In this document: one piece after another, positions 3,804 through 24,702 of the stretch
Position numbering within the stretch: the first letter of the stretch is position 1
Layout of the letters: each line of letters starts with the position of its first letter
DNA from: Knoellia locipacati
Lineage (GTDB): Bacteria; Actinomycetota; Actinomycetes; Actinomycetales; Dermatophilaceae
Assembly (NCBI RefSeq): GCF_007992835.1
Contig: NZ_BKBA01000011.1
Location: 1 to 64,000, forward strand
Direction: 5' to 3'
Length of the DNA stretch: 64,000 nt
The notes under the pieces: model-generated
Database searches by the model: none
Told to the model about the DNA's origin: nothing
Seen by the model: only the letters and a program-made list of their open reading frames with translations
Position numbers and translations under genes: made by a program

Positions 3804-3834
3804 CTCCCTTCAGGACGACATCCGGCGGGTGGCC

Positions 3835-5436: not shown

Positions 5437-5531
5437 ACCGTCCCCCTCTTCTCCCAAGTCCCGTTCATCACGAAGAATAGGCCGCGGGGGAGCACCGTGG
5501 TGCGCCACCTCCATCCTGCCTGCGCGCCGTA

Positions 5532-5537
5532 TAGGTT
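5532..5537 (+). promoter_or_regulatory. -10 element for eccC
   Basis: TAGGTT, of the TANNNT type recurring before genes here, sits 34 nt upstream of the eccC GTG in the 135-bp divergent eccD-eccC region. A ribosome site (GGGGAGGGA) then precedes the GTG, so this mRNA has a leader. No convincing -35 box was seen. Confidence 0.45.
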
Positions 5538-5571
5538 GGCCCAGGCATCAGCACACTCGGGGAGGGAACTC

Positions 5572-8500
5572 GTGACCGCGACAGTCGGAGGCACGCGCCA
5601 GGAGGCGCCGGCCGTCCCGTCGGGACGGATCGTCCTGCAGCCGCCACCGGAGATCACCCCCGCCGAGGGACTGAGCAACGTCCTCATGCAGGCCGTGCCG
5701 ATGCTCGGCAGCGTCGGCTCGATGGGCTTCGTCGCGCTGTCGCAGCCGGGTCCGCGCGGCATCATCGGTGCTGGCATGTTCCTCGTCGCCTCGCTGGGCT
5801 TCGTCTTCGCGAGCGGCGTGCGCCAGCGCCAGCAGCACACGACCGAGGTCATCTCCAACCGGCGCGAGTACCTCGCCTACCTCGCCGAGGTCCGCGGCAC
5901 CGTGCGCGACGCCGCGGCCAAGCAGCGTGAGGCGGGGCTGTGGAACTATCCGGCGCCGGCCTCGCTGCCGCTGCTCGCCGAGGAGAAGAGCCGCGTCTGG
6001 GAGCGCCTGCCCAAGGACGACGACTTCCTGCACGTGCGCATGGGCACGACCTCGCAGCCGCTGTGCCTCACGCTCGAGCCCGCCGAGACCCCGCCCCTGG
6101 CGCAGCTCGACCCGGTCGCGGCCTCGGGTCTGCACCGCCTCCTCACGACCCACCGCGTCCAGCACGGCCTGCCCGCGTCGGTGTCGCTGTCCGCGTGGGC
6201 ACGGGTCCAGGTCACCGGTGAGGCCGGCCCGGCGCGGGCCCTCGCCCGCTCGCTCGTCGTCAACGCCGCGGTGATGCACTCGCCCGAGTCGCTCGTCGTC
6301 GCGGCGCTGGTCGGCCCTGACGTGCGTGACGAGTGGGACTGGCTCAAGTGGCTCCCGCACGCCCTCAGCCCGCGCGAGCGTGACGCGATCGGTCCGATGC
6401 GCCTCGTCGCCGAGTCGGTCGACGAGCTGCTCGAGCTCCTCCCCGACGACATCACCGACCGGCCGCGGTTCGGGCCGAGCGCCCAGCCGTCGACGCCGCA
6501 CGTCCTCGTCATCGTCGACGGCGCACGCCTGCCGCGGCACAACCCGCTCGTCACCGAGGACGGCGTCCTCGGGGTCACCGTCCTCGACCTCCCGGAGCAG
6601 TGGGGAGAGCTCGACTCGACGACGACCCTGCGCCTCGCGGTCGACGCTGCGCGGCAGGGTATGCCGTCCGCCCAGGTCCCGTTCGAGATCCTCAGCCTGA
6701 GCCGTGGCGGGGCCAAGGGCCTCGCCGACCAGATGAGCATCACCGAGGCCGAGGCCGCCGCCCGACGTCTCGCGCCGATGTTCGTCAGCGGTGAGGTCGA
6801 GGTCCGCGACGCGCTCACGAGCAGCACCGAGCTGGTCGACCTGCTCGGTCTGGGCGACGTCCGCGACTTCGACCCGGCGACCGCGTGGCGCCCGCGTCTG
6901 CAGCGTGACCGGCTGCGGGTGCCGATCGGTGTCGGCGGCAACGGCCAGGTCGTCGCCCTCGACATCAAGGAGTCCGCCCAGCAGGGCATGGGCCCGCACG
7001 GTCTCGTCATCGGCGCCACCGGCTCCGGCAAGTCCGAGCTCCTGCGCACGCTCGTGCTCGCGCTCGCGATGACCCACTCGTCCGAGCAGCTCAACTTCGT
7101 CCTCGTCGACTTCAAGGGTGGTGCGACGTTCGCGGGCATGGCCGACATGCCGCACGTCTCGGCCGTCATCACCAACCTCGGTCAGGAGCTCACGCTCGTC
7201 GAGCGCATGCAGGACGCCCTGCAGGGAGAGATGACCCGCCGCCAGGAGCTCCTGCGCTCGGCCGGCAACTTCGCCAACGTCACCGACTACGAGAAGGCGC
7301 GGGCGGGTGGGGCCGATCTGGAGCCGCTCCCGGCGCTGCTCATCGTCGCCGACGAGTTCTCCGAGCTGCTCTCGGCCAAGCCCGAGTTCGCCGACCTCTT
7401 CGTCGCCATCGGCCGCCTCGGCCGGTCGCTCTCGATGCACCTGCTGCTCTCGTCGCAGCGCCTCGAGGAGGGCAGGCTCCGCGGCCTCGAGTCGCACCTG
7501 TCCTACCGGATCGGTCTGCGCACGTTCTCCGCGGGCGAGTCGCGCACCGTCATCGGCGTTCCCGATGCCTACGAGCTGCCGCCCGTGCCGGGTCTGGGCT
7601 ACCTCAAGCCCGACCAGACCACGCTGCTCAAGTTCAAGGCCGCCTACGTCTCCGGTCCGCCGAAGGGACGTCGGCGCCGGTCGACCGCGGGCACCGGTGG
7701 CACGTCGATGCAGGTCCTGCCGTTCACCTCGACCAAGGCGGTCTCGGCGCTGCAGCGCGTCGACGAGGCGCCGGTCGCCACGAACGAGCCCGAGGAGACC
7801 CGTGCGGTCTTCGACATCGCCGTCGAGCGGATGAAGGGCAAGGGCAGGCCCGCCCACCAGGTCTGGCTGCCCCCGCTCGACGTGCCGAACTCCCTCGACC
7901 AGCTCCTCGGCGACCTCGCCACGGACCCGCAGCTCGGGCTGGTCAGCCGGCGCTGGCGCGACCGCGGCAGCTACGTCTTCCCGATGGGCATCGTCGACCG
8001 GCCGCTCGAGCAGCGCCGCGAGATGTTCGTGCTCAACCTCGGTGGGGCCGCCGGACACGTGGCCGTCGTCGGTGGACCGCGCACGGGTCGCAGCACCTTC
8101 GCGCGCACGCTCGTCAGCTCGATCTCGCTCACGACGACGCCGTTGGAGACGCAGTTCTACATCCTCGACTTCGGTGGCGGCACGTTCACGCCCTTCGCTG
8201 GGCTGCCGCACGTCGCCGGTGTGGCCAACCGCAACGAGCCCGACGTCGTGCGCCGCACGGTCGCCGAGATCAGCGGCATCATCGACAAGCGCGAGGCCTA
8301 CTTCCGGGCGCAGGGCATCGACTCGATCGAGACCTACCGCCGCCGCCGCGCCGAGGGGCGTGCCGACGACGGCTACGGCGACGTCTTCCTCGTCGTCGAC
8401 GGCTGGCCCACGATCCGGGCCGAGTTCGACGAGCTCGAGCAGTCGATCAGCGGCATCGCCGGGCGTGGTCTCACCTTCGGCATCCATGTCGTCATCACGA

Positions 8501-9540
8501 CCTCGCGCTGGATGGACTTCCGGATGCAGATCCGCGACGTCCTCGGCACCCGCGTCGAGCTCGGGCTCGGTGACCCCGGCGACTCCGAGATCGACCGCCG
8601 GGTCGCGGCCAACGTGCCCAAGGGACGTCCCGGACGAGGCATCACGACGACCAAGCACCACTTCCTCGCCGGCATCCCGCGCGTCGACGGCTCCGGCCGG
8701 GTCGACGACCTCGGCGAGGGTGTCGACGACATGGTCGCCAGGGTCTCCGCCGCGTGGCAGGGTCCCCGGGGTCCCAAGCTCCGGCTCCTGCCAGAGCGGA
8801 TCACGCTCGAGGCGATCCGTGCCCAGGCCGGTCCCGACGACAAGCGGGTCCTGCTCGGCATCGACGAGAACAACCTCGAGCCGGTCGGCGTCGACGTCAC
8901 GGAGGAGTCGCACCTCTACCTCTTCGGGGACTCCGACTCCGGCAAGTCGGCGATGCTGCGCGGCTACGCCAGTGAGATCGCCCGCCTCTACACGCCCGAG
9001 CAGGCCAAGCTCTTCGTCGTCGACTACCGACGCGCCCTGCTCGGCGAGCTGCCGCCGGACCACGTCGCCGAGTACATGACGACCGAGGAGCAGGTGACGG
9101 CCGAGATGGAGGGCCTCACGGCGTTCCTGCGCACGCGCCTGCCCGGCCCCGACGTCACTCCCGAGCAGCTGCGCTCGCGGTCGTGGTGGTCGGGCTCGGA
9201 GGCGTTCATCCTCGTCGACGACTACGACCTCGTCGTGACGTCCGCCGGGTCGCCGCTGCGCCCGCTCGTGCCGCTGCTCGCCCAGGCGACCGACGTCGGC
9301 CTGCACCTCGTCGTGACGCGTCGCTCCGGTGGCGCCTCGCGGTCGAGCTACGAGCCGGTGCTCCAGGCGCTGCGCGACCTCGCGAGCCCCGGCATCCAGC
9401 TGAGCACGCCGCCCGACGAGGGTGCGCTCGTCGGCAACGTCCGCGGCTCGCTCCAGCCCGCCGGACGCGGTCGGCTCGTGACCCGCGACAACGGCAACCA
9501 GGTCGTCCAGCTCGCCTGGCACCCCGCCAAGCACAGCTGA
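5572..9540 (+). CDS. eccC: EccC, three-domain FtsK/SpoIIIE ATPase of type VII secretion
   Basis: A 1322-residue motor protein on one chain (no EccCa/EccCb split). Two transmembrane helices lie near 40-85. Three ATPase domains follow: Walker A GATGSGKS at 481-488 with Walker B LIVADE; a second with GPRTGRST at about 835-842, where the usual Lys is Arg; a third with GDSDSGKS at 1119-1126 and Walker B FILVDD. Family knowledge: domain 1 drives export and domains 2/3 bind substrate signals. GTG 5572 was chosen for the GGGGAGGGA site 3 nt before it and the match to EccC N-termini. It is followed by a strong hairpin, so downstream genes probably have their own promoter. Confidence 0.95.
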   Translation: MTATVGGTRQEAPAVPSGRIVLQPPPEITPAEGLSNVLMQAVPMLGSVGSMGFVALSQPGPRGIIGAGMFLVASLGFVFASGVRQRQQHTTEVISNRREYLAYLAEVRGTVRDAAAKQREAGLWNYPAPASLPLLAEEKSRVWERLPKDDDFLHVRMGTTSQPLCLTLEPAETPPLAQLDPVAASGLHRLLTTHRVQHGLPASVSLSAWARVQVTGEAGPARALARSLVVNAAVMHSPESLVVAALVGPDVRDEWDWLKWLPHALSPRERDAIGPMRLVAESVDELLELLPDDITDRPRFGPSAQPSTPHVLVIVDGARLPRHNPLVTEDGVLGVTVLDLPEQWGELDSTTTLRLAVDAARQGMPSAQVPFEILSLSRGGAKGLADQMSITEAEAAARRLAPMFVSGEVEVRDALTSSTELVDLLGLGDVRDFDPATAWRPRLQRDRLRVPIGVGGNGQVVALDIKESAQQGMGPHGLVIGATGSGKSELLRTLVLALAMTHSSEQLNFVLVDFKGGATFAGMADMPHVSAVITNLGQELTLVERMQDALQGEMTRRQELLRSAGNFANVTDYEKARAGGADLEPLPALLIVADEFSELLSAKPEFADLFVAIGRLGRSLSMHLLLSSQRLEEGRLRGLESHLSYRIGLRTFSAGESRTVIGVPDAYELPPVPGLGYLKPDQTTLLKFKAAYVSGPPKGRRRRSTAGTGGTSMQVLPFTSTKAVSALQRVDEAPVATNEPEETRAVFDIAVERMKGKGRPAHQVWLPPLDVPNSLDQLLGDLATDPQLGLVSRRWRDRGSYVFPMGIVDRPLEQRREMFVLNLGGAAGHVAVVGGPRTGRSTFARTLVSSISLTTTPLETQFYILDFGGGTFTPFAGLPHVAGVANRNEPDVVRRTVAEISGIIDKREAYFRAQGIDSIETYRRRRAEGRADDGYGDVFLVVDGWPTIRAEFDELEQSISGIAGRGLTFGIHVVITTSRWMDFRMQIRDVLGTRVELGLGDPGDSEIDRRVAANVPKGRPGRGITTTKHHFLAGIPRVDGSGRVDDLGEGVDDMVARVSAAWQGPRGPKLRLLPERITLEAIRAQAGPDDKRVLLGIDENNLEPVGVDVTEESHLYLFGDSDSGKSAMLRGYASEIARLYTPEQAKLFVVDYRRALLGELPPDHVAEYMTTEEQVTAEMEGLTAFLRTRLPGPDVTPEQLRSRSWWSGSEAFILVDDYDLVVTSAGSPLRPLVPLLAQATDVGLHLVVTRRSGGASRSSYEPVLQALRDLASPGIQLSTPPDEGALVGNVRGSLQPAGRGRLVTRDNGNQVVQLAWHPAKHS

Positions 9541-9547
9541 GCGACGG

Positions 9548-9579
9548 CGCCGCGACGGGGAGTGCTCCCCATCGCGGCG
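9548..9579 (+). terminator. hairpin terminator after eccC
   Basis: A stem with outer arms CGCCGCGA/TCGCGGCG and inner arms GGGGAG/CTCCCC begins 7 bp after the eccC stop. There is no T-run, which is common for high-GC actinobacterial terminators. Confidence 0.65.
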
Positions 9580-9594
9580 CGGCGGGGGCGTCAC

Positions 9595-9600
9595 TAGGTT
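9595..9600 (+). promoter_or_regulatory. -10 element for the downstream T7SS gene trio
   Basis: TAGGTT lies 41 nt before the ATG at 9642, after the eccC hairpin and before a GAGGAGGGG ribosome site. It suggests a separate promoter for the three overlapping genes 9642-11940. Confidence 0.45.
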
Positions 9601-9641
9601 TGGGGCACGACGAGGGATGACGACATGGCGAGGAGGGGTCC

Positions 9642-10721
9642 ATGAACGACTTCAGGGTCGAGATCAGCCAGCTCGACACGGTCAACGGTGTGTTCAGGCT
9701 GCAGACGGGTCACCTGGGCAAGGTGCAGACCTATGTGCAGAGCAACTGCAACGCCGGTAGCGGTTTCACCGGTCTGGCGGTCGCGCCGCTGCAGGGGCAC
9801 TACGACCGCGCCTACCAGATCGCCGACACCGGCACGGGTCAGGGCAAGGCGATCTCGCAGAACTGCACGACCACCATGAACACGACCAAGACCGAGTACC
9901 TCGCGCAGGACCGTGCGGCATACGACCGCATGGCTGCGCAGATGCGCCGGACCGGACAGACCCCGCCGCCCTACCGCGCGCCCGGCCAGGGTCCCGCGCC
10001 GCAGCCGGGAGCCTCGGCCGCCAACGTCCCGTCGGGTGACAACACCTGGTGGAAGTACACCAAGCAGGGGCTCTCGGAGACGACGAACGTCCTGGGCTAC
10101 GCCGACAAGGTGCGCAGTATGGGGCCGTTCGGCCCGGGGATGGAGGCGCCGAAACCGCCGGAGTACCCCGACAGCCTCAACCCGGCGAAGTGGCGCGAGT
10201 ACGCCATGAACAAGCGGCTCTACGACACCGTGACCCACCGCTGGGACTCGCGCACCGCCGCCGAGCACAACGCGCGCAACACCAGCGGCAACGACTCCTG
10301 GACCGAGGAGGACGCGCGGCGCTCGCGCGAGGACGGCTACACCCGTGACCGCCAGGCGGCGCGCGACGACTTCTGGGAGCGCGTCGACTGGGCCGAGGCC
10401 GACCGCCGCAACGGTGCCGACACCACCGGCAACAGCTCGGTCACCGCCGACGACATGCGGCGCGAGCGGGAGAGCACCTACCGCAACCCGGCGCCGACCG
10501 ACGGCCGCGGCACGACGTGGGACGCGAACCAGACCTTCGGTGCCGCGCAGCGGGCCGTGGGGCTGCCCGGCGCACTCATCAGCACGACCGAGGGGCTCGT
10601 GAGCACCTGGCAGCACGGCCAGGACGCGAGCGACCTCAGGCAGGACGTCAACGCGTCCGTCGACGGACCATCCAACAGCGGCTCGGTCGACTGGGCCAAC
10701 AGGAACGGGGGACAGTGGTGA
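9642..10721 (+). CDS. type VII secretion-associated protein, unknown family
   Basis: A 359-residue hydrophilic protein with no signal peptide. The first 110 residues look like a helical hairpin region (MNDFRVEISQLDTVNGVF onward) of the size expected for an ESX partner domain. A Pro-rich joint near 115-135 leads to a highly charged region rich in Arg, Asp and Asn. Strong ribosome site GAGGAGGGG before the ATG. Its stop overlaps the GTG of the next gene. Position in the ESX locus suggests a secreted substrate or specific partner; no family was recognised. Confidence 0.6.
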   Translation: MNDFRVEISQLDTVNGVFRLQTGHLGKVQTYVQSNCNAGSGFTGLAVAPLQGHYDRAYQIADTGTGQGKAISQNCTTTMNTTKTEYLAQDRAAYDRMAAQMRRTGQTPPPYRAPGQGPAPQPGASAANVPSGDNTWWKYTKQGLSETTNVLGYADKVRSMGPFGPGMEAPKPPEYPDSLNPAKWREYAMNKRLYDTVTHRWDSRTAAEHNARNTSGNDSWTEEDARRSREDGYTRDRQAARDDFWERVDWAEADRRNGADTTGNSSVTADDMRRERESTYRNPAPTDGRGTTWDANQTFGAAQRAVGLPGALISTTEGLVSTWQHGQDASDLRQDVNASVDGPSNSGSVDWANRNGGQW

Positions 10722-11482
10722 GCACCATTGCAGAGCAGGTCGACGCGTCGAGCGCGCTCGTCCCGCCGGCGAGCGACGAGGGCAACTTCGTCGAGGACCT
10801 CGAGGCCAGCTCCGGTCTCGTGCTGCGACCGATCCTGTGGTTCATTCGCAAGGCGTTCGGCGTGAGCCCGATCGAGGAGCTCGTCAAGCCGATCGCCGGC
10901 GACTGGAACCAGCTGAGCCGGGCCAAGGACGCCTGGGGCCGCACCGAGATCGCGTGCAACGGCGTCGGCAAGAACTTCGGCGCCCTCAAGACCTCGACCA
11001 CCGAGTGGACCGGCCCGTCGTCGGTCGCCTTCCGCGACCGGATGGGCAAGCTCGAGGAGAACTACACCAAGTACGGCACGGGGTGCGACCAGATCGGCCG
11101 GCTCGTCGGCGCCCTCATCGACATCACCAAGTCGGTGGCGAGCACGATCGCGACGATCATCGGGTTCATCGTCGACGAGATCACCTTCCTCGCCGCGTGC
11201 GCGTCGATCCCGGGGCCGGGCTGGCTCGTGGGTGGCGCGAAGATCGCGACGAGCATCCGCAAGTACTGGAACCTCATCCAGCGCGGCTACAACGCGATCC
11301 GCCGGGTGCTCATGGCGATCAACAGCTTCGTCAAGGGCTGCTACGCCGTCGTCAACGTGCTGCGCGTCCTCACTGTCCTGTCCAACACCCTCATCGCGCT
11401 GCAGAACTACGGCACCGGCACCGACATCGACGACGCGCAGGCCAACAACTTCGGCGTGCCGCCCGGCACGGTGCCCGCATGA
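10718..11482 (+). CDS. WXG100-like type VII secretion protein with membrane-active segment
   Basis: A 254-residue protein with a WTG turn at 97-99 inside a helical region (about 60-125), the WXG100 signature. It is followed by a hydrophobic stretch at about 130-185 that could cross or insert into a membrane, then a further amphipathic helical region. Start GTG 10718 overlaps the preceding stop (GTGA). Likely an ESX substrate, perhaps secreted with one of its overlapping neighbours, since WXG100-like proteins commonly work as dimers. Confidence 0.65.
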   Translation: MSTIAEQVDASSALVPPASDEGNFVEDLEASSGLVLRPILWFIRKAFGVSPIEELVKPIAGDWNQLSRAKDAWGRTEIACNGVGKNFGALKTSTTEWTGPSSVAFRDRMGKLEENYTKYGTGCDQIGRLVGALIDITKSVASTIATIIGFIVDEITFLAACASIPGPGWLVGGAKIATSIRKYWNLIQRGYNAIRRVLMAINSFVKGCYAVVNVLRVLTVLSNTLIALQNYGTGTDIDDAQANNFGVPPGTVPA

Positions 11483-11940
11483 GCGGGGCGTCGTTCGAGG
11501 AGTCCAGCCGCGAGGTCGAGGCGATCCTCGCCGAGCTGCTCGAGCTCCGGCACGAGATCGACGCCGAGCGCGAGGAGCTCGTCGACCAGTTCGTCTCCGA
11601 CCCGACGACGGACCACCGTCGCGACTACGACGAGATGAGCGACAAGGCTCGTGCCGGTGAGCTCGGACCCGAGTGGCAGAAGCTCCAGCGCCGGGTCGAC
11701 CTCGACGAGACCTCGCTCGACCGGGTCTTCTCCAGCGAGGACACGAGCTCGGAGGCCGAGTTCGTCCGTTCCGTCGCCGACGAGAAGGCCAGCAGGCTGC
11801 TCGAGATGCAGGTGGAGCCGGAGGCCGAGGAGGACCTCAGGCTCAACATGTCGACCTTCGCCGGGGTGCGCGAGCAGCAGGCCGAGATCGCGCGGATGCT
11901 GGCCGAGCTCAAGGACCTGCCGCTGCCCCCTCTGGACTGA
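11479..11940 (+). CDS. small acidic coiled-coil protein of the T7SS locus
   Basis: A 153-residue, strongly acidic, almost wholly helical protein with Leu/Glu/Arg-rich heptad-like stretches at about 10-35 and 120-147 and no signal or membrane segment. It starts at an ATGA overlap with the WXG100-like gene. Candidate cytosolic chaperone or partner of the two upstream proteins, comparable in position to EspG or small Esx partners; no sequence family was recognised. Its last 32 bp overlap the convergent DUF3592 gene. Confidence 0.6.
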   Translation: MSGASFEESSREVEAILAELLELRHEIDAEREELVDQFVSDPTTDHRRDYDEMSDKARAGELGPEWQKLQRRVDLDETSLDRVFSSEDTSSEAEFVRSVADEKASRLLEMQVEPEAEEDLRLNMSTFAGVREQQAEIARMLAELKDLPLPPLD

Positions 11941-14292: not shown

Positions 14293-15132
14293 TCAGGTCG
14301 GCGGGCTCGCAGGGGTGAACTCGACCGGCGCCTCGAACGCGGCCTTGCGCGCCGCTCGACGCAGCGTGCGGAGCACGACGCCGCCGGTGAGGCTGATGAG
14401 GACGACGTTGGTGAGGGCCCGGCCGAGGTCCCACCCGAGCGAGGTCGCGAGCGAGAAGATCCCGAACCGGTGCAGGTTGTCGAGCAGGGGCGCCCCCGCG
14501 ACGAACGACAGCTCGCCGTCGAGGCCGCTCGCGAACGGCCAGAACATGAGGTTGAGCGCGAAGCCGTAGAGCAGCCCCGACACCGCGCCGTAGGCCGCGA
14601 GGAGCGCGATCTCTGCCCGGCCCCTCAGCTGGGGCAGGAGCCCTCCGCCGAGACCGACCCAGGCGGCGCCGAGCATCTGGAAGGGCAGCCAGGGCCCCAC
14701 GCCGCCGGTGATGAGGGCCGACGCGAAGAGCGTCGTGGCACCGAGGACGAACCCGAACCCGGCCCCGAAGACGCGTCCGCCGAGGACGAGCAGGAAGAAG
14801 ACCGTCTCGAGCCCGGCGGTGCCGGCGCCGAGTGGACGCAGGGCGGCGCCCACGGCCGACAGGACGCCGAGCATCGCGATCGCCTTGACGTCGAGACCGC
14901 CCTCGGACACCTCCGCCATGACGACGGAGAGGAGCAGGGGCATGAGCAGGCCGAAGACGAGGGGCGCGTCGGTCGAGTGCGCGAACGCGGTGCCGGGGTC
15001 GACGAGCAGGGGCCAGCCGAAGGCGACGACGCCGGCGAGGCTGACGATGACGATCGCGGCGACCGACCGGGGCCGGAGCCGGATGGCGCGGGTCCGGTCG
15101 GAGGACGCCCGCACGGGCGAGAGGGTGCTCAC
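14293..15132 (-). CDS. ECF transporter S component, predicted cobalamin-specific
   Basis: A 279-residue integral membrane protein with about seven hydrophobic segments (from VAAIVIVSLAGVVAFGWPLL near 25 to the helix before 255), as in substrate-binding S components of energy-coupling-factor transporters. It overlaps the ATPase gene by 4 bp (GTGA). With the upstream cobalamin riboswitch and the order T, fused A, S, it matches the actinobacterial CbrTUV-type arrangement, so cobalamin or another corrinoid is the likely substrate. Specificity is inferred from context, not from a recognised binding motif. Confidence 0.78.
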   Translation of the reverse strand: MSTLSPVRASSDRTRAIRLRPRSVAAIVIVSLAGVVAFGWPLLVDPGTAFAHSTDAPLVFGLLMPLLLSVVMAEVSEGGLDVKAIAMLGVLSAVGAALRPLGAGTAGLETVFFLLVLGGRVFGAGFGFVLGATTLFASALITGGVGPWLPFQMLGAAWVGLGGGLLPQLRGRAEIALLAAYGAVSGLLYGFALNLMFWPFASGLDGELSFVAGAPLLDNLHRFGIFSLATSLGWDLGRALTNVVLISLTGGVVLRTLRRAARKAAFEAPVEFTPASPPT

Positions 15133-16748
15133 GACGGCTCCCCGACGGCATACCGGACGTCGTCGACCGTGAGCCACGGCTGCGGTGAGGTGATCTTCGC
15201 GACCTGCGGGGCGAAGGCCGGGCTGGCGACGACGACGTCGGCGGTTGGTCCGTCGGCGACGACCTCGCCGGCCGCCATGACGACGACACGGTCGGCGGAC
15301 TCGGCGACGAACTCGACGTCGTGGGTCGAGACGACGACGCTGCGGCCACGCTCGACGAGCCGACGCAGGGCGCGGCGCAGGGCCGCCTTGCCGGCGTAGT
15401 CGAGGCCACGGGTGGGCTCGTCGAGCAGGAGGACCGGCGGGTCGGCGGTGAGCTGCACGGCGAGGACGACGGCGAGGCGCTGCCCCTCGGACAGGTCCCG
15501 GGGGTGGCGGTCGTCCGGTATGCCGGGTGCCAGGTCGTCGAGCAGGCTGCGGCAGGTGCCCGGGTCGCGCCCGCTCTCGCGGTCGGCCTGCGCACACTCG
15601 GCGCCGACCGTGTCGAGGTAGAGCAGGTCCGCGGCCGACTGCGGGACGAGCCCGACATGGCGACGGCGCTCGGCGGCGTCGAGGGCGCGGACGTCGGTCG
15701 CGTCGGACGTCGTGCCGTGACGGCGCCTCACCGAGCCCGAGCGCATCGGACCGGAGCCCTGGAGCGCCCAGAGCAGCGAGGACTTGCCGGCGCCGTTGCG
15801 GCCCATGAGGGCGGTGACCTCGCCGGCGCGCAGCGACAGGTCGACCTCGGCGACGGCGACGACGGTGCCGTGGGTGACGGTGACCCGGCGCGCGTCGAGC
15901 AGGGCGTGGCCGGGGGCGGCGACGGGGGGACGCGGTGCGGTCGGCAGGGACCGCCACGGTGCGGCCCGGCGGCGGGCGTCGCGCACCGAGAGCGGCAGCG
16001 GCGACCAGCCGGCCCAGCGGCCCAGCTCGACGACGGGCGGGGCGACGTCGGCGGTGAGCATGACCTGCGCCGGGTCGCCCTGGGTGACGACGCCGTGCGC
16101 GCCGACGTGGACGAGGGTGTCGGCGTACTGGAGCACGCGCTCGATCCGGTGCTCGGCGACGACGACGGTCACGGCGAGGTCGTGCACGAGCCGGGTGATG
16201 GTCGCGAGGACGTCCTCGGCGCCGGTGGGGTCGAGGGCCGACGTCGGCTCGTCGAGGACGATGACCTTGGGGTGGGTGGTGAGCACGGAGCCGATGGCGA
16301 CGCGCTGCTGCTGGCCACCCGAGAGCTCGCGCAGGGCGGCGCCGCGCAGGTCGGCGATGCCGAGCACGTCGAGGGTCTCCTCGACCCGCTTGCGCATGGT
16401 CGAGGCGCCGAGACCCAGCTGCTCCATGCCGTAGGCGAGCTCCTCCTCGACGGTGTCGGTGACGAAGCCTGCGAGGGGATCCTGGCCGACGACGCCGACG
16501 ACGTCGGCGAGGTCGCGGGGCCGGTGCTCACGGGTGTCGCGGCCGGCGACCCGGACGGATCCGGCGAGTGTGCCGCCGGTGAAGTGCGGCACGTGCCCGG
16601 TGATGGCGCCGAGGAGCGTGGACTTGCCGGAGCCGGTGCGGCCGACGACGAGGGCGAGCTCGCCCTCGTCGACGCGCAGGGACACGTCGCGCAGGACGGG
16701 CTCGGTCGCGCCCTCGAAGGACACGGACACGCGGTCGAGCTCGATCAT
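15129..16748 (-). CDS. ECF transporter fused double ATPase (EcfA-EcfA')
   Basis: A 539-residue protein with two ABC ATPase domains. Domain 1: Walker A GRTGSGKS at 36-43, signature LSGGQQQR, Walker B VIVLDEPTSALD. Domain 2: Walker A GRNGAGKS, signature LSEGQRLA, Walker B VLLLDEPTRGLD. Each half is complete, so both nucleotide sites can be active. Tandem fusion is usual for dedicated vitamin ECF systems in actinobacteria. Start ATG 16748 overlaps the T-component stop (ATGA), and its stop overlaps the S-component start, so the three subunits are made in step. Confidence 0.92.
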   Translation of the reverse strand: MIELDRVSVSFEGATEPVLRDVSLRVDEGELALVVGRTGSGKSTLLGAITGHVPHFTGGTLAGSVRVAGRDTREHRPRDLADVVGVVGQDPLAGFVTDTVEEELAYGMEQLGLGASTMRKRVEETLDVLGIADLRGAALRELSGGQQQRVAIGSVLTTHPKVIVLDEPTSALDPTGAEDVLATITRLVHDLAVTVVVAEHRIERVLQYADTLVHVGAHGVVTQGDPAQVMLTADVAPPVVELGRWAGWSPLPLSVRDARRRAAPWRSLPTAPRPPVAAPGHALLDARRVTVTHGTVVAVAEVDLSLRAGEVTALMGRNGAGKSSLLWALQGSGPMRSGSVRRRHGTTSDATDVRALDAAERRRHVGLVPQSAADLLYLDTVGAECAQADRESGRDPGTCRSLLDDLAPGIPDDRHPRDLSEGQRLAVVLAVQLTADPPVLLLDEPTRGLDYAGKAALRRALRRLVERGRSVVVSTHDVEFVAESADRVVVMAAGEVVADGPTADVVVASPAFAPQVAKITSPQPWLTVDDVRYAVGEPS

Positions 16749-17884
16749 GGGTGCACCTCCGTGGCGACCGGTCGAGGGCGGGCCACACTCCTCGGGGCGG
16801 GCGGCGGGGGTTCGGGTGTGAGGAAGGCGGGCAGGGCGGCCACGAGCAGGCCCGCGAGGGCGAGCAGGGGGAGGGCCGGCACCCCGAGCGGGTCGAGCGG
16901 GACGCCGAGGGCCGCCGCGTCCGAGCGTCGGACGAGCTGGACGGCGACGGCGGCGGCAGCCCCGCACCCGACCGTGAGCCACTCGGCGGCGCGCCACGGG
17001 TCGGGACGGTAGGTCGTGCGGGCGTTGGCGGCGCCGCCGAGCCAGATGCCCAGGAGCGACAGGGCGACACCGGCAGCGAGGACGGGCAGGCCCATCCACC
17101 CGGGGGTGGTGGCGTCGAGGACGCCGTAGGTGCCGACAGCGCTCGCGAGCAGCCCACCGAGGGTGCACGCGGCGGTGAGGGCACGGCGTCCCGGTGCCAC
17201 CTCGCGTCGGCGCCCGTAGCCGCGCGAGTCCATCGCCGAGGCCAGCATGAGCGAGCGGTCGAGGGTGTCCTCAAGCACCGGAAGGGCGACCCGGGGCACG
17301 GCGCGGATGCCACGTGCTGTGTCGCCGCGTAGGGCTCGGGCACGCATGACGCGCTGGACGCTCTCGGCCAGCTGGGGCGCCACGCTGATCGTCACGACGA
17401 CGGCCGAGCCGATCTCGCTCAGCGCGCCGGGGAGGCTGCGGAGCAGGCGCTTGGGGTTGGCCAGTGAGTTGGCGGCGCCGATGCAGGCGATCATCACGGC
17501 GAGGCGCAGGCCCTCGGTGAGCGCGCCGACGAGACCGTCGAGGCGCACGTCGCCGAGCAGGTTGATGCCTGCGGCCCACGACGGCAGCGACACCTCGGGC
17601 AGCGGGAGGATGACGGGCTCGCCGAACTTGAGCCCGACGAGCACGTGCAGCACCGCCCGGACGCCGACGATGAAGCCGCCGAGCCAGAGGTAGAGACGGA
17701 ACGACCGCGCCCACGGCGAGGACCCCCGCCGCGACAGGACGACGAGCGCGGCGACGGACAGGGCGGTGAGCAGCAGGAACGGGTTCGTCACGGTGCTCAC
17801 CGCGACGGCCAGACCGATCGCCCAGAGCCACCACGCGGCCGGGTGGACCGCGCGGGGCAGGGGCGGCGTCAGCGGGCCGGCCAT
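16745..17884 (-). CDS. ECF transporter T component (EcfT)
   Basis: A 379-residue membrane protein. Five or more transmembrane helices surround a long cytoplasmic region with the Ala-Arg-Gly coupling motif (ARALRGDTARG, near 210, and a second ASAMDSRGYGRR, near 245) that grips the two ATPase halves. The start ATG 17884 was chosen because the preceding sequence is low-complexity and out of character. The first helices begin at WWLWAIGLAVAVS. It lies 46 bp downstream of the DUF4430-like gene in the same operon. Confidence 0.9.
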   Translation of the reverse strand: MAGPLTPPLPRAVHPAAWWLWAIGLAVAVSTVTNPFLLLTALSVAALVVLSRRGSSPWARSFRLYLWLGGFIVGVRAVLHVLVGLKFGEPVILPLPEVSLPSWAAGINLLGDVRLDGLVGALTEGLRLAVMIACIGAANSLANPKRLLRSLPGALSEIGSAVVVTISVAPQLAESVQRVMRARALRGDTARGIRAVPRVALPVLEDTLDRSLMLASAMDSRGYGRRREVAPGRRALTAACTLGGLLASAVGTYGVLDATTPGWMGLPVLAAGVALSLLGIWLGGAANARTTYRPDPWRAAEWLTVGCGAAAAVAVQLVRRSDAAALGVPLDPLGVPALPLLALAGLLVAALPAFLTPEPPPPAPRSVARPRPVATEVHP

Positions 17885-17930
17885 GCCGCCACCGCCCTCT
17901 CGTGGAGAGGGGGCGGGGCGACGGACGTCA

Positions 17931-18842
17931 TCACACCGACGTCTGGGCCTGACGTCGACGCAGCCCGACGAAGGCCACGGCCGAGGCGAGGCCGGCGAGC
18001 AGTGCACCGCCGCCGAGGAGCCGGGCGGTGCCCGACCCTCCCGACCCGTCGGACGAGCGGCCGTCGGTGGGCCCGGCGGCGACAGCGTCGCTGCTGGACT
18101 CGGACGCGCTGGCGCTGGGCTCACCCGTCGCGGACGGGGAGGCCGACGACGGCGTGCTGGGTGTCGGGGAGGCGGTGGGGCTCGCGGCCCCAGGCGTGGG
18201 GGTGGTCCCCGGGGCAGCGTTCGGCGCCCGGGTCGCCCCTGCCGCCCCGCTCGTGGCGGGGGGCGCGGTGGTGCGGCCGGACGGTGCCTGCGTCGTCGAC
18301 CGAGGAGTGTTCGGTGCCGTCGTCGCCCTGCGCGGCGTGGGCTTGGGCGCCGCCGTCGTGGGCCTGGGCGCGGCGGTCGTCGGCTTGGGAGCCGAGACGG
18401 TCGCCGGCTGGGTGCCGGGGGCGGTGCCCGACCCGAACCGGAAGCCGACCGACGAGCCGGGCTTGGGGTCCCAGCCCTTGATGCCGATCTGGCTGTAGGT
18501 CCACGAGCCGCCGTTGGGTGCGTGCCAGAACGACCAGTAGGCGCTCGCCGGAGGCATGTTGACGCACGGGTCCGACTTCGGGAACCCGTCGATCCGGCAG
18601 AGGGCGTCGGGGAAGCGCTGCACCGCGGTGAGCGAGAACCCGGCGGACTGCAGGGCGCCCCACGCCGAGCCGGGGTCCCCGCTCGCGCAGCGCACCGACG
18701 TGCCGTTCGAGCTCTGGACGACGACCGTGACGCCGCTGGTGCTGGAGCAGGCGGCCGCCTGCGCCGGGGCGGCCGCGCCGGTGAGCGCGGCTGCCCCGAC
18801 CGCGGTGGCCGCGGCGAGCGAGAGGAGTCGCCGGAGCAGCAT
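17931..18842 (-). CDS. exported membrane-anchored DUF4430/transcobalamin beta-domain-like protein
   Basis: A 303-residue exported protein. Signal peptide 1-30 (ends AQAA), a compact domain at about 36-138, a Thr/Pro/Ala-rich stalk (about 140-265), and a C-terminal membrane helix (about 273-293) followed by RRR with no LPXTG-like motif. The domain has a pattern shared with the N-terminal domain of the next protein: C..I-G..P..DPC, then YWSFW at 102-106, then W..YSQIG. This fits the fold of DUF4430, the C-terminal corrinoid-contacting domain of transcobalamin and intrinsic factor. Four cysteines in the domain could form disulfides. Predicted role: bind or relay corrinoid at the outer membrane face next to the ECF transporter. 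Confidence 0.72.
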   Translation of the reverse strand: MLLRRLLSLAAATAVGAAALTGAAAPAQAAACSSTSGVTVVVQSSNGTSVRCASGDPGSAWGALQSAGFSLTAVQRFPDALCRIDGFPKSDPCVNMPPASAYWSFWHAPNGGSWTYSQIGIKGWDPKPGSSVGFRFGSGTAPGTQPATVSAPKPTTAAPRPTTAAPKPTPRRATTAPNTPRSTTQAPSGRTTAPPATSGAAGATRAPNAAPGTTPTPGAASPTASPTPSTPSSASPSATGEPSASASESSSDAVAAGPTDGRSSDGSGGSGTARLLGGGALLAGLASAVAFVGLRRRQAQTSV

Positions 18843-20818
18843 CAGGCGTGCACCCCGCGGCGGCGCGACAGGAGCACGAAGGCGGCTCCCGCGAGCAGCA
18901 GCAGCGATGCCACGGCGAGGGCGGGCCAGACCACGGCTCCGGTGTAGGCCAGACCGGGGGACGGGTCGCCCACGGGCTGGGCCCCGCCGCCTCCGACGCC
19001 GTCGGCCGAGCCGCCGCCGGTGCCGCCGGTGCCGGGCGTTCCCGCGGGGGGCGTGCTGCCGGGCGGGGTGCCCGTGCCGGGGGCCGTCGGCGTGGGGGTG
19101 GGGGTCGGCGTCGTGGGGGCGGCGGCCGTGACGAGGGTGTCGAAGCCGGGCAGCCCGAACGCGAGCATCGCCTGCGGAGTGGCGCGCTCCCACTGGTCGG
19201 TGCTCGTCGCCGCACCCGCGGCGAAGGCCTCGGGGGAGTAGGCGATGGCGCCGACGTTGGTCGTCGCGGCGTTGCTCGCCGGGAGGACCTGGAGGCCGGC
19301 GACCCAGGCGCGGCCCCTGCTCACGGCGTCCTCGGCGTCGGCCGATCCCGGGTGCTCGTCGAGGTAGGCCTGGAGCGCCTGGACGGCGAGACCCGTCGAG
19401 TTGGTGTTGACCGTCGTCGTGAAGCCGTCGTTGGCCCACCCGCCGGTCGTCGTGGCGGCCTTGGTGAGGAAGCCGACGGCGCGGGTGAGGTTGGACTCGG
19501 GCACGTCGACGCCGGAGCGGTCGGCCGCGAGCATCGCCTGCAGGCCCATGGCGGTGGCGTCGACCCCGACGGAGTCGGTGCCGTCGGCGCAGGGGGCCTT
19601 GCCGTGTCCGAGGCGGAACCCGCCGGACGGGCACTGCTGGGTGAGCATCGAGCCCAGGACCTTGGCGTCGAGGGCGTCGGCGCGGGCCAGCGCGAGGACC
19701 GCGATGGTCTGGCCGAACCCGTATGCCGGGGAGTTGCCGGAGTCGAGCACGGCACCGGTGTCGTCGATCTTGGAGACGAGGGTCTTGGCGACGTCGAGGC
19801 CACCGACGTCGTGGACGTCGTCACGCACGGCCTCGGCGGCGAGCATCGCCTTGGCGGCGGACGGACCGTCGACGTAGGACGTGCCCTCCCAGGTGAAGTC
19901 GACCCACTCCGGGATCTGCTTCTCGATGGCGGCCCAGAGGCCGGGGATGGCCTCGTGCTTCGGGTTCTGCGCGACGAGACCGAAGAGCATGTCGATCATG
20001 AGACCGGGGTTCGTCCCGTAGGACTGCAGGTCGTAGGTGCCGTCGCCCTGGAGGGCGCGCGAGACGAGCCACTGCGAGGCGAGGTCGGCGCGACCCGGGC
20101 CAGCGGGGGCCGTCGGGGTGGGCGTCGGCGTCGTCGGGGTCGGCGTCGGGGTGGGCGTGCTCGTCGAGGGCGTGGTCGACACCCGGGGCGCCGGGGCGTC
20201 CGGGACGTTGTCGACGAGGGACAGGGCGACGAAGGTGCCCGTCGGGGCGCCGGTCTCGTGGGCGCCGGTCTCGGCCTGCTTCCAGCCGGTGTCGGTGCCG
20301 GTCCAGAAGGACCACCACACACCGGTCCAGGCGTCGCACGGGTTGGTCGACGGGGCAGCGTCGACCTGGCAGATCTGCGGGCCGAAGCTCGTCGCCTTGG
20401 TGAGGACGTCGAAGCCGGCGTCGGCGAAGGTCTGGAGCGAGTTCGTCGACGAGTAGGCCGCGCCACCGGTCGTCGTGACGCAGCGCGCCACAGCGGGGTC
20501 GCTGCCCTGAAGGTCGATCACGGCGGTGACGCCGTCGACGTCGGGGGCGCACACCCCGGCGGTGAAGGTCGTGCCCGGTGCGGGCGGCAGGCCGGCCGGA
20601 GCCGCGGCGGGCGCCTTGGGCGTGGTCTGCGTCGCTGACGGGGTCGCCGTCGGGGCCGGCGCGGAGCCGGTCGGGGCGCTCGGCGACGGGGTGCTGCTCG
20701 CGGAGGCGGTGGGGCTGGGAGCGGACGCGGTCTCGGCGACGGCAGCGGCCGGCATACCGAGGACGAGGGCAGCCAGCGCGAGCGGCGCGACGGCGCGCAG
20801 GCGGGGGGAGCGGAGCAT
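18842..20818 (-). CDS. cell-wall-anchored intrinsic-factor/transcobalamin-like protein
   Basis: A 658-residue surface protein. Layout: signal peptide 1-29; Ser/Pro/Thr linker to about 80; beta-like domain about 85-205 with WWSFW at 168-172 and paired cysteines; TP-repeat linker 206-242; alpha/alpha-toroid about 243-565 of the prenyltransferase/squalene-oxidase-repeat type, with GG and G-aromatic turns (CPSGGFRLG, TTTGGWANDGF, NSTGLAVQAL); second linker; sorting signal LAYTG at 623-627, hydrophobic 628-650, then RRRG. Vertebrate intrinsic factor and transcobalamin have the same two domain types in reverse order. First gene after a cobalamin riboswitch. ATG 20818 has AGGAAGG upstream. The corrinoid role is strongly suggested by context but not shown by a binding motif. 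Confidence 0.78.
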   Translation of the reverse strand: MLRSPRLRAVAPLALAALVLGMPAAAVAETASAPSPTASASSTPSPSAPTGSAPAPTATPSATQTTPKAPAAAPAGLPPAPGTTFTAGVCAPDVDGVTAVIDLQGSDPAVARCVTTTGGAAYSSTNSLQTFADAGFDVLTKATSFGPQICQVDAAPSTNPCDAWTGVWWSFWTGTDTGWKQAETGAHETGAPTGTFVALSLVDNVPDAPAPRVSTTPSTSTPTPTPTPTTPTPTPTAPAGPGRADLASQWLVSRALQGDGTYDLQSYGTNPGLMIDMLFGLVAQNPKHEAIPGLWAAIEKQIPEWVDFTWEGTSYVDGPSAAKAMLAAEAVRDDVHDVGGLDVAKTLVSKIDDTGAVLDSGNSPAYGFGQTIAVLALARADALDAKVLGSMLTQQCPSGGFRLGHGKAPCADGTDSVGVDATAMGLQAMLAADRSGVDVPESNLTRAVGFLTKAATTTGGWANDGFTTTVNTNSTGLAVQALQAYLDEHPGSADAEDAVSRGRAWVAGLQVLPASNAATTNVGAIAYSPEAFAAGAATSTDQWERATPQAMLAFGLPGFDTLVTAAAPTTPTPTPTPTAPGTGTPPGSTPPAGTPGTGGTGGGSADGVGGGGAQPVGDPSPGLAYTGAVVWPALAVASLLLLAGAAFVLLSRRRGVHA

Positions 20819-20919
20819 GTGGGGGACAGCCTTCCTGAGCGGTTCGTGACGAACGCCCGACCCGGCCACGAGTGGCTGCCCGGGCTCCGTCCCGTGACCT
20901 CGACGGGTGATGTGGAGCC

Positions 20920-21046
20920 GCTCGCGCCTGCGGGGCAGTCCGGCTCGCCACCCTCGCGGGTGGCCTACGGTTGCGGGTCAGCGCCGGACTTGGACCGGCT
21001 TCCCCCCGCGGACGCGGTTGGTGTCGCCGATCGCTCGGCAACCCGC
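20920..21046 (-). promoter_or_regulatory. cobalamin riboswitch
   Basis: On the minus strand the leader contains the B12-box core: GGGGAAGCCGGTCC, then AAGTCCGGCGCTGACCCGC, then AACCGTAGG, followed by a stem and GAGCCGGACTGCCCCGC. This matches the conserved cobalamin riboswitch order (GGGAA, CCGG...TCCGG, GCTGACCCGCAAC.GTAGG, GAGtCCGGA.ACCTGCC). It lies about 100 nt before the transcobalamin-like gene, whose AGGAAGG ribosome site lies in the downstream leader. No T-rich terminator is seen, so control of translation is more likely. Confidence 0.92.
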
Positions 21047-21096: not shown

Positions 21097-21351
21097 ACAG
21101 GCGTTCGAGCCGTCATCAGCGGCGAGCCTCCGGAAGAACGGCGTGACCCTCGCGAGGGGGCCGGGCCCACTAGAACCGGACGTACGGGTCACGTCACGAC
21201 CTGGAGCAAGAGCGGTCGTATGCCGGACGCCCACGAGGGCGCGCGGCTGCGGCAAGCGAGGTGGTACCGCGGAGGGGCCCGGCCGGCATACGGCAGGGAG
21301 CCTTTCGTCCTCGTCCAGATGACGACGCGACGACCCGCAGGAGCCCCCGAC
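21097..21351 (+). promoter_or_regulatory. T-box riboswitch of ileS
   Basis: The leader has the T-box core GCGAGGTGGTACCGCGG (21257-21273), which binds the uncharged tRNA 3' end, followed by a GC-rich stem and TTCGTCCTCGTCC, the usual downstream partner of the GAGG side. A specifier stem-loop for an Ile codon is expected in the first 100 nt. No terminator T-run follows, and the ileS start is about 35 nt beyond, fitting the actinobacterial ileS type that controls translation start. The stem after the T-box contains the inverted 8-mer pair at 21218 and 21284. Confidence 0.93.
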
Positions 21352-24300
21352 ATGACCTACCCCAAGGTCTCCACCAGCCAGCCCGGCGCTGCCTTCGGCG
21401 TGCCCTCGAGCCCGCGGTTCCCGCAGATCGAGGAGGCCGTCCTCGCCCACTGGGAGGCCGACGACACCTTCCGCGCGTCGATCGAGCAGCGCGAGGCGGG
21501 GGAGAACGGTGAGAACGAGTTCGTTTTCTACGACGGTCCGCCGTTCGCCAACGGGCTGCCGCACTACGGCCACCTGCTCACCGGCTACGTCAAGGACCTC
21601 GTGCCGCGCTACCAGACGATGCGCGGCCGCCGGGTCGAGCGCCGCTTCGGCTGGGACACCCACGGCCTGCCGGCCGAGCTCGAGGCGATGAGCCAGCTCG
21701 GCATCAAGACCAAGGACGAGATCGTCGAGCTCGGCATCGAGAAGTTCAACGACGCGTGCCGCACCTCGGTGCTCAAGTACACCGGTGACTGGCGCGAGTA
21801 CGTCACCCGCCAGGCGCGCTGGGTCGACTTCGACAACGACTACAAGACGCTCAACGCGCCTTACATGGAGTCGGTGATCTGGGCGTTCAAGTCGCTCCAC
21901 GACAAGGGCCTCGTCTACGAGGGCTTCCGCGTCCTGCCCTACTGCTGGAACGACCAGACGCCGCTGTCCAACCACGAGTTGCGGATGGACGACGAGGTCT
22001 ACCAGATGCGCCAGGACCCGGCGGTCACCGTCGGCTACCTGCTCGACACCACAGGCTCGGACCCGGTGCTCGACGGCGCGCACCTGCTCGTGTGGACGAC
22101 CACGCCGTGGACCCTGCCGAGCAACCTCGCCGCCATGGTCGGCTCCGACATCGACTACGTCGTCGTCGAGGCGCCGGTGCCGGGGCTCGAGGACGGGGCT
22201 CCGGCCCGCTACGTGCTCGCCGAGGCCCGGCTGGGCCACTACGCGCGCGAGCTCGGCGAGGACCCCGTCGTCGTCGGTCGCTACAAGGGCTCCGACCTCG
22301 TCGGCCGTTCGTACACGCCGCCGTTCTCCTACTACGCGGGCCACGAGAACGCCTTCCGGATCGTCGCCGCCGACGACGCCGTGACGACCACCGACGGCAC
22401 CGGGGTCGTCCACACGGCCGGCGCGTTCGGTGAGGTCGACAAGGAGGTCACCGACCGCGAGGGCATCGAGCCGGTCATGCCGGTCGGGGCCGACGGTGCC
22501 TTCACGTTCCCCGTGTCCGAGTACGAAGGGATGCTCGTCTTCGACGCCAACGCGCCGATCATCGAGCACCTCAAGGCCGCGACGCGTGGCTCGGGCGAGG
22601 TGGGCTCGGTGACGCCGGGCACGGTGCTGCTGCGCCGCGAGACCTACGACCACTCCTACCCGCACTGTTGGCGCTGCCGCGAGCCCCTCATCTACAAGGG
22701 CGTCTCGTCGTGGTTCGTCGAGGTGACGAAGTTCCGTGACCGCATGGTCGAGCTCAACCAGCAGATCCAGTGGGTCCCCGACCACGTCAAGGACGGCCAG
22801 TTCGGCCGATGGCTCGAGAACGCCCGCGACTGGTCGATCACGCGGAACCGGTTCTGGGGCAGCCCCGTTCCCGTGTGGCGTTCGGACGACCCCGAGTACC
22901 CGCGCATCGACGTCTACGGCTCGTTCGAGGAGATCGAGCGCGACTTCGGCCGGCTGCCCCTGAACGCCCAGGGTGAGCCGGACCTGCACCGGCCGTACGT
23001 CGACTCGCTGACCCGTCCCAACCCCGACGACCCGACGGGGCGCTCGACGATGCGCCGGGTCGAGGACGTCATGGACGTGTGGTTCGACTCGGGCTCCATG
23101 TCGTTCGCGCAGGTGCACTACCCGTTCGAGAACGCCGAGTGGTTCGAGCACCACTTCCCGGGCGACTTCATCGTCGAGTACATCGGGCAGACGCGTGGCT
23201 GGTTCTACACGCTGCACGTGCTCGCGACCGCGCTCTTCGACCGTCCCGCGTTCACGTCGGTGATCTGCCACGGCATCGTCCTCGGCAACGACGGCCAGAA
23301 GATGAGCAAGTCGCTGCGCAACTACCCCGACGTGCGGGAGGTGTTCGACCGCGACGGCGCCGACGCGATGCGCTGGTTCCTCATGTCGTCGCCGATCCTG
23401 CGCGGTGGCAACCTCATCGTCACCGAGGAGGCGATCCGCGAGGGGGTGCGCCAGGTCCAGATCCCGCTGTGGAACAGCTGGTACTTCTTCACCCTCTACG
23501 CCAACGCCTTCGGTTCCGGTTCCGAGGGTGGTGACGGACAGGGGTATGCCGCGCAGTGGTCGACCGCGTCGACCGCGCCCCTCGACCGCTACCTGCTCGC
23601 CAAGCTGCGCCAGCTCGTCGAGACGACGACCAAGCAGCTCGACGGGCTCGACGTCGCCGGCGCCTGCGACTCGATCCGTGGCTTCGTCGACGTGCTGACG
23701 AACTGGTACATCCGCCGGTCGCGGGAACGCTTCTGGGACACCGGTTCTGGCGAGGGATCGGAGTCGGGTGCCGACGCACGTGCGGCGTTCGACACGCTCT
23801 ACACCACCCTCGAGGTGCTGACCCGGGTCACCGCGCCGCTGCTGCCGCTCGTCTCCGAGGAGATCTGGCGCGGCCTCACGGGTGGGCGCTCGGTGCACCT
23901 CGCCGACTGGCCGTCGGCCGACGACCTGCCCTCCGACGACGAGCTCGTCGCGCGGATGGACCAGGCTCGGACGATCTGCTCGGTCGCGTCGTCGCTGCGC
24001 AAGTCCGAGAAGCTGCGCGTGCGGCTCCCGCTGCGCGACCTCACGGTCGTCGTGCCGGACGCCGCCGGCCTCACCGACTTCGCCGGGATCGTCGCCGACG
24101 AGGTCAACGTCCGCCAGGTCTCGCTGCTCGACCTCGACGCCGCGGGGGAGAGTGACTTCGGCGTGACCCAGAAGCTCACGGTCAACGCCCGCGCCGCCGG
24201 CCCGCGCCTGGGGCGCGAGGTGCAGACAGCCATCAAGGGCTCGAAGACCGGCGACTGGTCGGTGGCCGAGGACGGCACCGTGGTCAGCGGCGGGCTCGAG

Positions 24301-24702
24301 CTCGTCGAGGGCGAGTACCAGCTCGAGACGGTCGTCGAGGGTGGCGGCGAGTCCTCGCGTGCGACGGCCGTCCTGCCCGGCGGCGGGTTCGTCGTCCTCG
24401 ACACCGAGGTCACGCCCGAGCTCGCGGCCGAGGGCCTCGCCCGCGACGTCATCCGCGCGGTCCAGCAGGCCCGCCGCGAGGCCGGGCTCGACGTGAGCGA
24501 CCGCATCTCGCTCACGGTCACCGGGTCGCAGGCCCTGTGGGAGGCGACGGTCGCCCACCAGGCGCTCATCGTCGAGGAGACCCTCGCGACGCAGTTCGGC
24601 TCGGCGCCGCAGCTCGAGGCGCTGCCGCTCGGCGACGGTGTGAGCGTGGCCGACCTCAGCGACGGTGAGCAGGCCCGGATCCTCGTCACGAAGCTCGGCT
24701 GA
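21352..24702 (+). CDS. ileS: isoleucyl-tRNA synthetase
   Basis: A 1116-residue class I aminoacyl-tRNA synthetase charging tRNA-Ile. HIGH-type motif HYGH at 71-74, KMSKS at 650-654, a CP1 editing region between them, and a C-terminal anticodon-binding region. The length and the [13 protein letters not shown] form fit the long, eukaryote-like IleRS of actinobacteria, a group that tends to be insensitive to mupirocin (family knowledge). ATG 21352 is chosen over upstream in-frame starts because those lie inside the T-box; GCAGGAG precedes it. Monocistronic, followed by a long palindrome. Confidence 0.97.

Follow-up and report, generated by a model that had tools for sequence, protein, structure and literature searches.

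An operon of Knoellia locipacati combining a cobalamin riboswitch, predicted transcobalamin-like surface proteins and an ECF importer

Known systems and the layout of the locus

To our knowledge, the capture of vitamin B12 (cobalamin) outside the membrane is little studied in Gram-positive bacteria, and accounts of energy-coupling factor (ECF) importers seldom include a binding protein of their own outside the cell. Here we describe an operon of Knoellia locipacati on the minus strand, from 21032 to 14293, of a 64,000-nucleotide (nt) stretch of contig NZ_BKBA01000011.1 (hereafter the window), in which a riboswitch is followed by five packed genes encoding two candidate capture proteins (TC1 and TC2) and the EcfT, EcfA and S component of an ECF importer. 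We consider that this operon very probably serves the uptake of cobalamin, or of corrinoids more widely, with capture at the cell wall feeding the importer.

The closest described systems are those of Burroughs et al. 2007 (PMC1796856), where the relevant sections report secreted, partly wall-anchored proteins combining a transcobalamin-like SLBB domain with a toroid, in either order. According to the same sections (PMC1796856), a second paralogue is frequent, the operons contain a CbiO-like ATPase and a CbiQ-like membrane protein, enzymes of B12 synthesis are usually lacking, and B12 scavenging was proposed; the clade comprises low-GC Gram-positives, planctomycetes and, less often, euryarchaea. 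The present locus shares with these systems the secreted and anchored proteins, as predicted from sequence, the toroid partner and the CbiO/CbiQ-type operon. It differs in its divergent SCO2322-type branch of the beta domain, which occurs in Actinobacteria and is missed by Pfam DUF4430, in the cobalamin riboswitch in front, and in the toroid and beta domains lying mostly in separate genes.

Both domain types are also those of vertebrate transcobalamin and intrinsic factor, with a beta fold match at a probability of 1.00 and 20% identity. TC1 has the beta domain before the toroid, whereas transcobalamin has the toroid before the beta domain (PMC1796856), and the proteins described here are cell-anchored beside an ECF importer, whereas the vertebrate proteins use a receptor. 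ECF-CbrT of Lactobacillus delbrueckii, an established B12 importer (PMC5997447), is of the same ECF type with S component, EcfT and ATPases, and a corrinoid would be the cargo here too. CbrT is classed with the group II S components and uses an ECF module in common with others (PMC5997447), whereas here EcfT and a double-ATPase EcfA are encoded in the operon together with two capture proteins; kinship of the S component to CbrT is not detectable, since the S profile has no match in PDB.

A sequence-only reading of this DNA had stated that it knew of no described actinobacterial case. We likewise found none among open-licence papers, but the idea itself had already been put forward for bacteria in 2007 (PMC1796856). 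What is new is the divergent actinobacterial branch, its switch, the linkage to MetH and the encoding of the two halves, toroid and beta, by different genes in most cases. The locus is thus a real and well supported actinobacterial form of the layout predicted in 2007 for other Gram-positives. Its features are as follows.

20938 to 21032, minus strand: cobalamin riboswitch aptamer (RF00174, sub-gathering; 20931 to 21019 with our own model), about 120 nt 5' of the TC1 ATG, with covariation in relatives
18842 to 20818, minus strand: TC1, with signal-like N-terminus, beta-like domain, Pro/Thr linker, alpha/alpha toroid and LAxTG-type anchor
20174 to 20578, minus strand: beta-like domain of TC1, SCO2322-type and like the transcobalamin C-terminal domain
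19124 to 20113, minus strand: predicted alpha/alpha toroid of TC1 (Pfam matches of relatives, structure model, profile built without the window's rows)
18845 to 18952, minus strand: LAYTG motif, hydrophobic segment and Arg-rich tail of TC1, a sortase-type anchor
17931 to 18842, minus strand: TC2, with signal-like N-terminus, beta-like domain, long linker and C-terminal hydrophobic segment
18414 to 18767, minus strand: beta-like domain of TC2 as modelled (structure model and fold matches)
16745 to 17884, minus strand: EcfT, transmembrane component of the CbiQ family (PF02361, E 3.5e-10)
15129 to 16748, minus strand: EcfA, two ABC ATPase domains in a single chain, overlapping EcfT and the S component by 4 nt each
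14293 to 15132, minus strand: ECF S component (PF12822 below cut-off; matches of relatives)

The genes run in the order TC1, TC2, EcfT, EcfA and S component, and neighbours overlap or are separated by short gaps. TC1 is 658 amino acids long when counted from its ATG, in a reading frame open from 20869, and the start of TC2 overlaps the stop of TC1. The start of EcfT was set at 17884, where an ATG stands, in keeping with how long one relative is. Upstream of the operon lies ileS on the plus strand (21220 to 24702; TIGR00392, 778 bits).

Riboswitch, candidate capture proteins and importer genes

An Rfam Cobalamin match had been expected at 20920 to 21046 of the minus strand, and a permissive search with RF00174 placed one at 20938 to 21032, at 27.3 bits against a gathering threshold of 31.5 (E 5.5e-5 in the 651 nt searched). 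In a whole-genome search the same element has an E-value of 7.2e-5 and ranks second behind a 71.7-bit copy on another contig. In 28 aligned elements from the equivalent place in the operon, the core is invariant and a hairpin covaries, with compensatory changes in 7 of 17 pairs. A model built from 26 of them, leaving out the window and its closest relative among the 28 (L042), hits the window at 20931 to 21019 with 83.7 bits (E 1.3e-16), the E-values of such home-built models being rough; its next-best place, at 29118 to 29195 of the minus strand (16.0 bits, E 0.06), is probably due to chance. The permissive search and the model of relatives settle the presence of the riboswitch, and the element is taken, on its sequence, as a short actinobacterial cobalamin riboswitch. 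The leader from 20816 to 20935 folds no better than its shuffles (z -0.16); no expression platform is claimed. A GGCTCC...GGAGCC hairpin enclosing CCGTCG lies 3' of the aptamer (20883 to 20919, minus strand), and CCGTCG recurs in many of the aligned relatives. A second strong cobalamin riboswitch elsewhere in the genome, at 1501 to 1709 of L001 (G000:C3), precedes a ribonucleotide reductase alpha gene (1873 to 3207).

In a Pfam search, TC1 and TC2 of the window themselves had no match at E <= 1, so their domain assignments rest on relatives and models. Iterated searches converge on the same 40 frames whether they start with residues 81-215 of TC1 or with the TC2 domain. The beta profile A5, built without the window's rows, matches residues 74-219 of TC1 at E 1.5e-14, while profile A1, stripped in the same way, did not list TC1; as a control, none of 200 shuffled TC1 sequences was listed at E <= 100. 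The NCBIfam family SCO2322 (NF040672), whose description, as shown, gives no function, matches 38 of 42 beta domains at E <= 0.1, and TC2 of the window scores 22.3 bits against its cut-off of 85. Canonical DUF4430 is present elsewhere in the phylum, in 51 of 296 genomes, and a profile comparison of A1 with 30 DUF4430 domains of the phylum gave E 3.7e-6 and a probability of 87%.

The TC2 domain was modelled with AlphaFold2 from 93 sequences with high scores (predicted local distance difference test, pLDDT, 90.2; predicted template-modelling score, pTM, 0.85). Its order of strands (E) and helix (H), E12-19, E22-29, H35-41, E46-49, E52-59, E77-83 and E106-112, fits a beta-grasp with a hairpin inserted after the helix. 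This agrees with the S1 S2 H insert S3 S4 S5 order given for transcobalamin-type SLBB domains in the relevant part of PMC1949818, the assignment being our own and the fourth strand only two residues long. When the model was compared with PDB by Foldseek, the first ten hits were all transcobalamin (probability 0.99-1.00, E 2.1e-3 to 1.6e-2) and the eleventh had a probability of 0.21. The top match was 5np4, the human beta domain with cyanocobalamin (E 2.1e-3, template-modelling score 0.56/0.61, 20% identity, probability 1.00). Single-protein sequence searches of PDB with TC1 and TC2 yielded nothing useful. Both beta-like assignments of the sequence-only reading are upheld, that of the second protein (17931 to 18842) by its ten confident fold matches and that of TC1 by the A5 profile and the convergence with the TC2 domain.

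For the toroid of TC1, PF00432 matches 9 of 15 toroid relatives at E <= 0.1 (best 4.6e-5), the window's own toroid not being among them, and a toroid profile without the window's rows matches it at E 5.9e-64. The model of the TC1 core (105 rows; pLDDT 86.4, pTM 0.70) is helical across the toroid. Foldseek gave 44 matches at E <= 0.001, of which transcobalamin (2v3n) is the fifth, among terpene cyclases and GH105 and GH76 enzymes. As modelled, this region is thus a real alpha/alpha toroid; its fold alone does not point to transcobalamin in particular, since 2v3n ranks amid cyclases and glycosidases.

Besides their signal-like N-termini, both proteins have C-termini of an anchoring type. The C-terminus of TC1 consists of LAYTG, a hydrophobic segment and a tail rich in Arg (23 bits with NCBIfam NF058582, cut-off 27), that of TC2 of a hydrophobic segment plus Arg residues, and the window's genome has two sortase places. 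In a simple count over two sets, LAxTG or LPxTG occurs near the C-end of 4/14 and 27/68 toroid frames and of 1/40 and 10/98 beta frames.

EcfA carries two ABC_tran stretches (Pfam). The S component of the window scores 21.4 bits with PF12822, below the cut-off of 30.7, while, of the 37 S relatives, 24 match PF12822 at E <= 0.1, with a lowest E-value of 2.5e-11. These relatives match ECF_trnsprt and ECF-ribofla_trS, not CbiM. PDB entry 6fnp was matched solely through its EcfT chain (E 0.09). The predicted make-up of an ECF transporter, with EcfT, two ATPase domains and S component, is complete, the window's S component lying below the PF12822 cut-off. EcfT, fused EcfA and S component were found where they had been proposed, closely spaced, with Pfam matches and the 4-nt overlaps of EcfA.

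Conservation of the operon and linkage to B12 use

The S component occurs in all nine genomes of the genus, the window's included; across the order, 43 of 149 genomes have it. Of the 40 order-level loci that we collected, three were found via TC1, and the other 37 come from 36 of the 42 S-bearing genomes besides the window's. A beta domain stands beside the ECF genes in 39 of them, and an RF00174 match lies directly upstream in 27. Eleven of the 13 loci lacking this match come from genomes without RF00174 at E <= 0.1 (stricter filters); of the other two, L081 is truncated where its contig stops, and L079 shows no switch in the 338 nt that its contig has ahead of the beta frame. The operon switch model found nothing below E 0.9 in the 11 switchless loci. 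The switch is present in all five congeners whose upstream DNA is not cut. In 10 of the 11 switchless operons (L065-L075), comparison with EcfT of the window assigned no frame to EcfT.

A scan of named genomes confirmed at least 571 stretches, with titles including Streptomyces, Amycolatopsis and Micromonospora. Eighty of these were taken as named loci, 79 with actinobacterial titles and one with a Chloroflexi title, and 62 of the 80 hold at least 5 kb upstream of the S gene. Searched with our own switch model (window included, E <= 0.01), 58 of these 62 have the switch upstream on the operon strand; 59 have a beta domain and 46 a toroid. The switch is absent from L085 and L158, and from L108 and L148, whose DNA begins within or immediately ahead of the first capture gene; L102, L145 and L160 lack an upstream beta domain. 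In most toroid-bearing relatives, the beta domain is encoded by a gene of its own in the operon and the toroid frame contains none; the two are fused in TC1 of the window, in 12 of the 46 toroid-bearing named loci and in none of the 14 of the order-level set. A single-protein search with the TC1 core missed congeners that carry a toroid gene, so its count of 6 of 39 is an undercount.

Compared with the eight congeners (L042, L196-L202; window region 17931 to 20818 for the capture proteins), the ECF proteins are 77-95% identical, while TC2 matches are 44-62% identical (six found) and TC1 matches 27-31% (four found). On these sequence identities, the capture proteins evolve far more rapidly than the ECF proteins. 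In five of the congeners no beta domain is listed in the toroid frame, L202 lacks a toroid in the examined stretch, and L196 and L198 are cut. The capture proteins occur split, fused (as in the window), doubled or toroid-less, perhaps as a result of competition for corrinoids.

Several variants of the arrangement were observed. A second switch on the opposite strand, at about 980-2060 (minus), lies near the operon switch in L107, L110, L129, L123, L125, L130, L132, L134, L141 and L154; in the three of these from Amycolatopsis (L107, L110 and L129), it stands before a further toroid gene. The Micromonosporaceae loci L106, L142, L147, L152, L153 and L159 have two toroid genes and two beta genes upstream of the same ECF genes, with two operon-strand switches in four of the six (L142, L147, L153 and L159). 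A search of plasmid DNA (25 records) gave two Streptomyces megaplasmid copies, the other matches listed being short ATPase matches. One megaplasmid copy, in L192 (Streptomyces sp. SAT1 plasmid, 2112 to 11901), adjoins metE; there the toroid gene is annotated as a prenyltransferase/squalene oxidase repeat protein and the gene after it as hypothetical.

Exactly one B12-binding place above cut-off is present in every one of the 11 genomes that lack a detected switch, and in 10 of them this sole B12-binding protein is a MetH encoded near the ECF genes, G124 being the exception. MetH and the ECF genes are convergent within 100 nt or overlapping in seven cases and 2.1-2.7 kb apart in three. The MetH calls were made with TIGR02082 on all ten, two of which are clipped by the end of the stretch and score below the full-length cut-off. 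The neighbour in L051 is IcmF, another B12 enzyme.

Tetrapyrrole methylases (TP-methylases) number 1-4 in the 11 switchless genomes, which makes cobalt for corrin synthesis an unlikely cargo. Among the 39 operon genomes, eight have 7-10 TP-methylases and the other 31 have 1-4; from these counts, the eight probably make corrins themselves. The window's genome has six B12-binding places above cut-off (seven at E <= 0.001) and three TP-methylases, against ten in the congener G007; with so few, its organism probably cannot make B12. Overall, the evidence favours a finished corrinoid over cobalt as the cargo.

Proposed uptake route and rival explanations

When cellular B12 is low, the riboswitch would permit expression of the operon. 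TC1 would then be held in the cell wall and TC2 in the membrane, where the two may capture extracellular B12 through their transcobalamin-type beta domains and the alpha/alpha toroid. The captured corrinoid would be handed to the S component, and EcfT and the double ATPase EcfA would drive import. Riboswitch, domain types, gene order, ECF genes, MetH linkage and few TP-methylases all support a corrinoid as the object of this route, in line with the B12 capture, relay and ECF import proposed from the letters. Transcobalamin holds B12 sandwiched between its two domains (PMC1796856). Since toroid and beta domain are encoded separately in most toroid-bearing relatives, a two-piece clamp is suggested; as a tentative extension, most toroid-bearing operons of this kind may encode an actinobacterial split intrinsic factor, in which separately anchored toroid and beta proteins would clamp B12 at the cell wall and deliver it to a dedicated ECF importer.

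Several results weigh against uptake of cobalamin as the function. RF00174 has no match in the window at the Rfam gathering threshold, DUF4430 (PF14478) matches none of the 42 beta domains at E <= 0.1, and the comparison of A5 with the 30 phylum DUF4430 domains is weak (probability 31%, E 5.3e-4). No PDB match of the TC2 model reaches E 0.001, and no transcobalamin or intrinsic factor is among the PDB profile matches listed (all rows for A1, A2 and A5, 60 of 78 for A7). The nearest PDB sequences of the toroid profile are terpene cyclases, and the toroid fold resembles cyclases and glycosidases as well as transcobalamin. The S profile found no PDB chain at E <= 10. Finally, the eight probable corrin makers retain the operon, and in G090 the operon and its switch are present, yet no B12-binding domain was detected at E <= 0.001.

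Given the resemblance of the toroid to other folds, the toroid protein might be a secreted enzyme, terpene cyclase-like or glycan-acting, that merely shares the operon. The cyclase matches in PDB, the GH105, GH76 and cyclase folds and one annotated record naming a prenyltransferase/squalene oxidase repeat would fit such an enzyme. The catalytic motif pattern of terpene cyclases, DxDD plus T/S plus A/G, is present in 0 of 69 toroids, however, and the toroid frame also contains a transcobalamin-like domain in the window and in the 12 fused named loci; we regard an enzyme as improbable. That the operon imports cobalt or some other small solute, its riboswitch being there to secure cobalt for B12 synthesis, is highly improbable. 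EcfT does belong to the CbiQ family, some predicted cobalt importers are preceded by B12 riboswitches, as a part of PMC2667541 reports, and the eight probable corrin makers would have a use for cobalt. But 31 of the 39 genomes keep these genes with 1-4 TP-methylases, too few for corrin synthesis, the S relatives match families other than CbiM, and big secreted transcobalamin-like domains are implausible for a metal ion.

A cargo consisting mainly of incomplete or other corrinoids, such as cobinamide or cobamides with other lower bases, which would be finished or remodelled inside, appears rather unlikely. ECF-CbrT carries both cobalamin and cobinamide, as described in part of PMC5997447, and the present data do not separate cobalamin from other corrinoids; but the MetH that is the sole above-cut-off B12-binding protein near the genes in 10 of 11 genomes requires a finished cobamide. 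Capture and import of cobalamin, or of corrinoids more widely, is the explanation we prefer.

The proposed function is easily overlooked, since in the one annotated copy inspected the capture genes are annotated as squalene-repeat and hypothetical proteins. If our interpretation is true, a widespread operon would provide Actinobacteria with an intrinsic-factor-like capture step, and this would bear on the 2007 proposal that animals acquired these proteins from Gram-positive bacteria.

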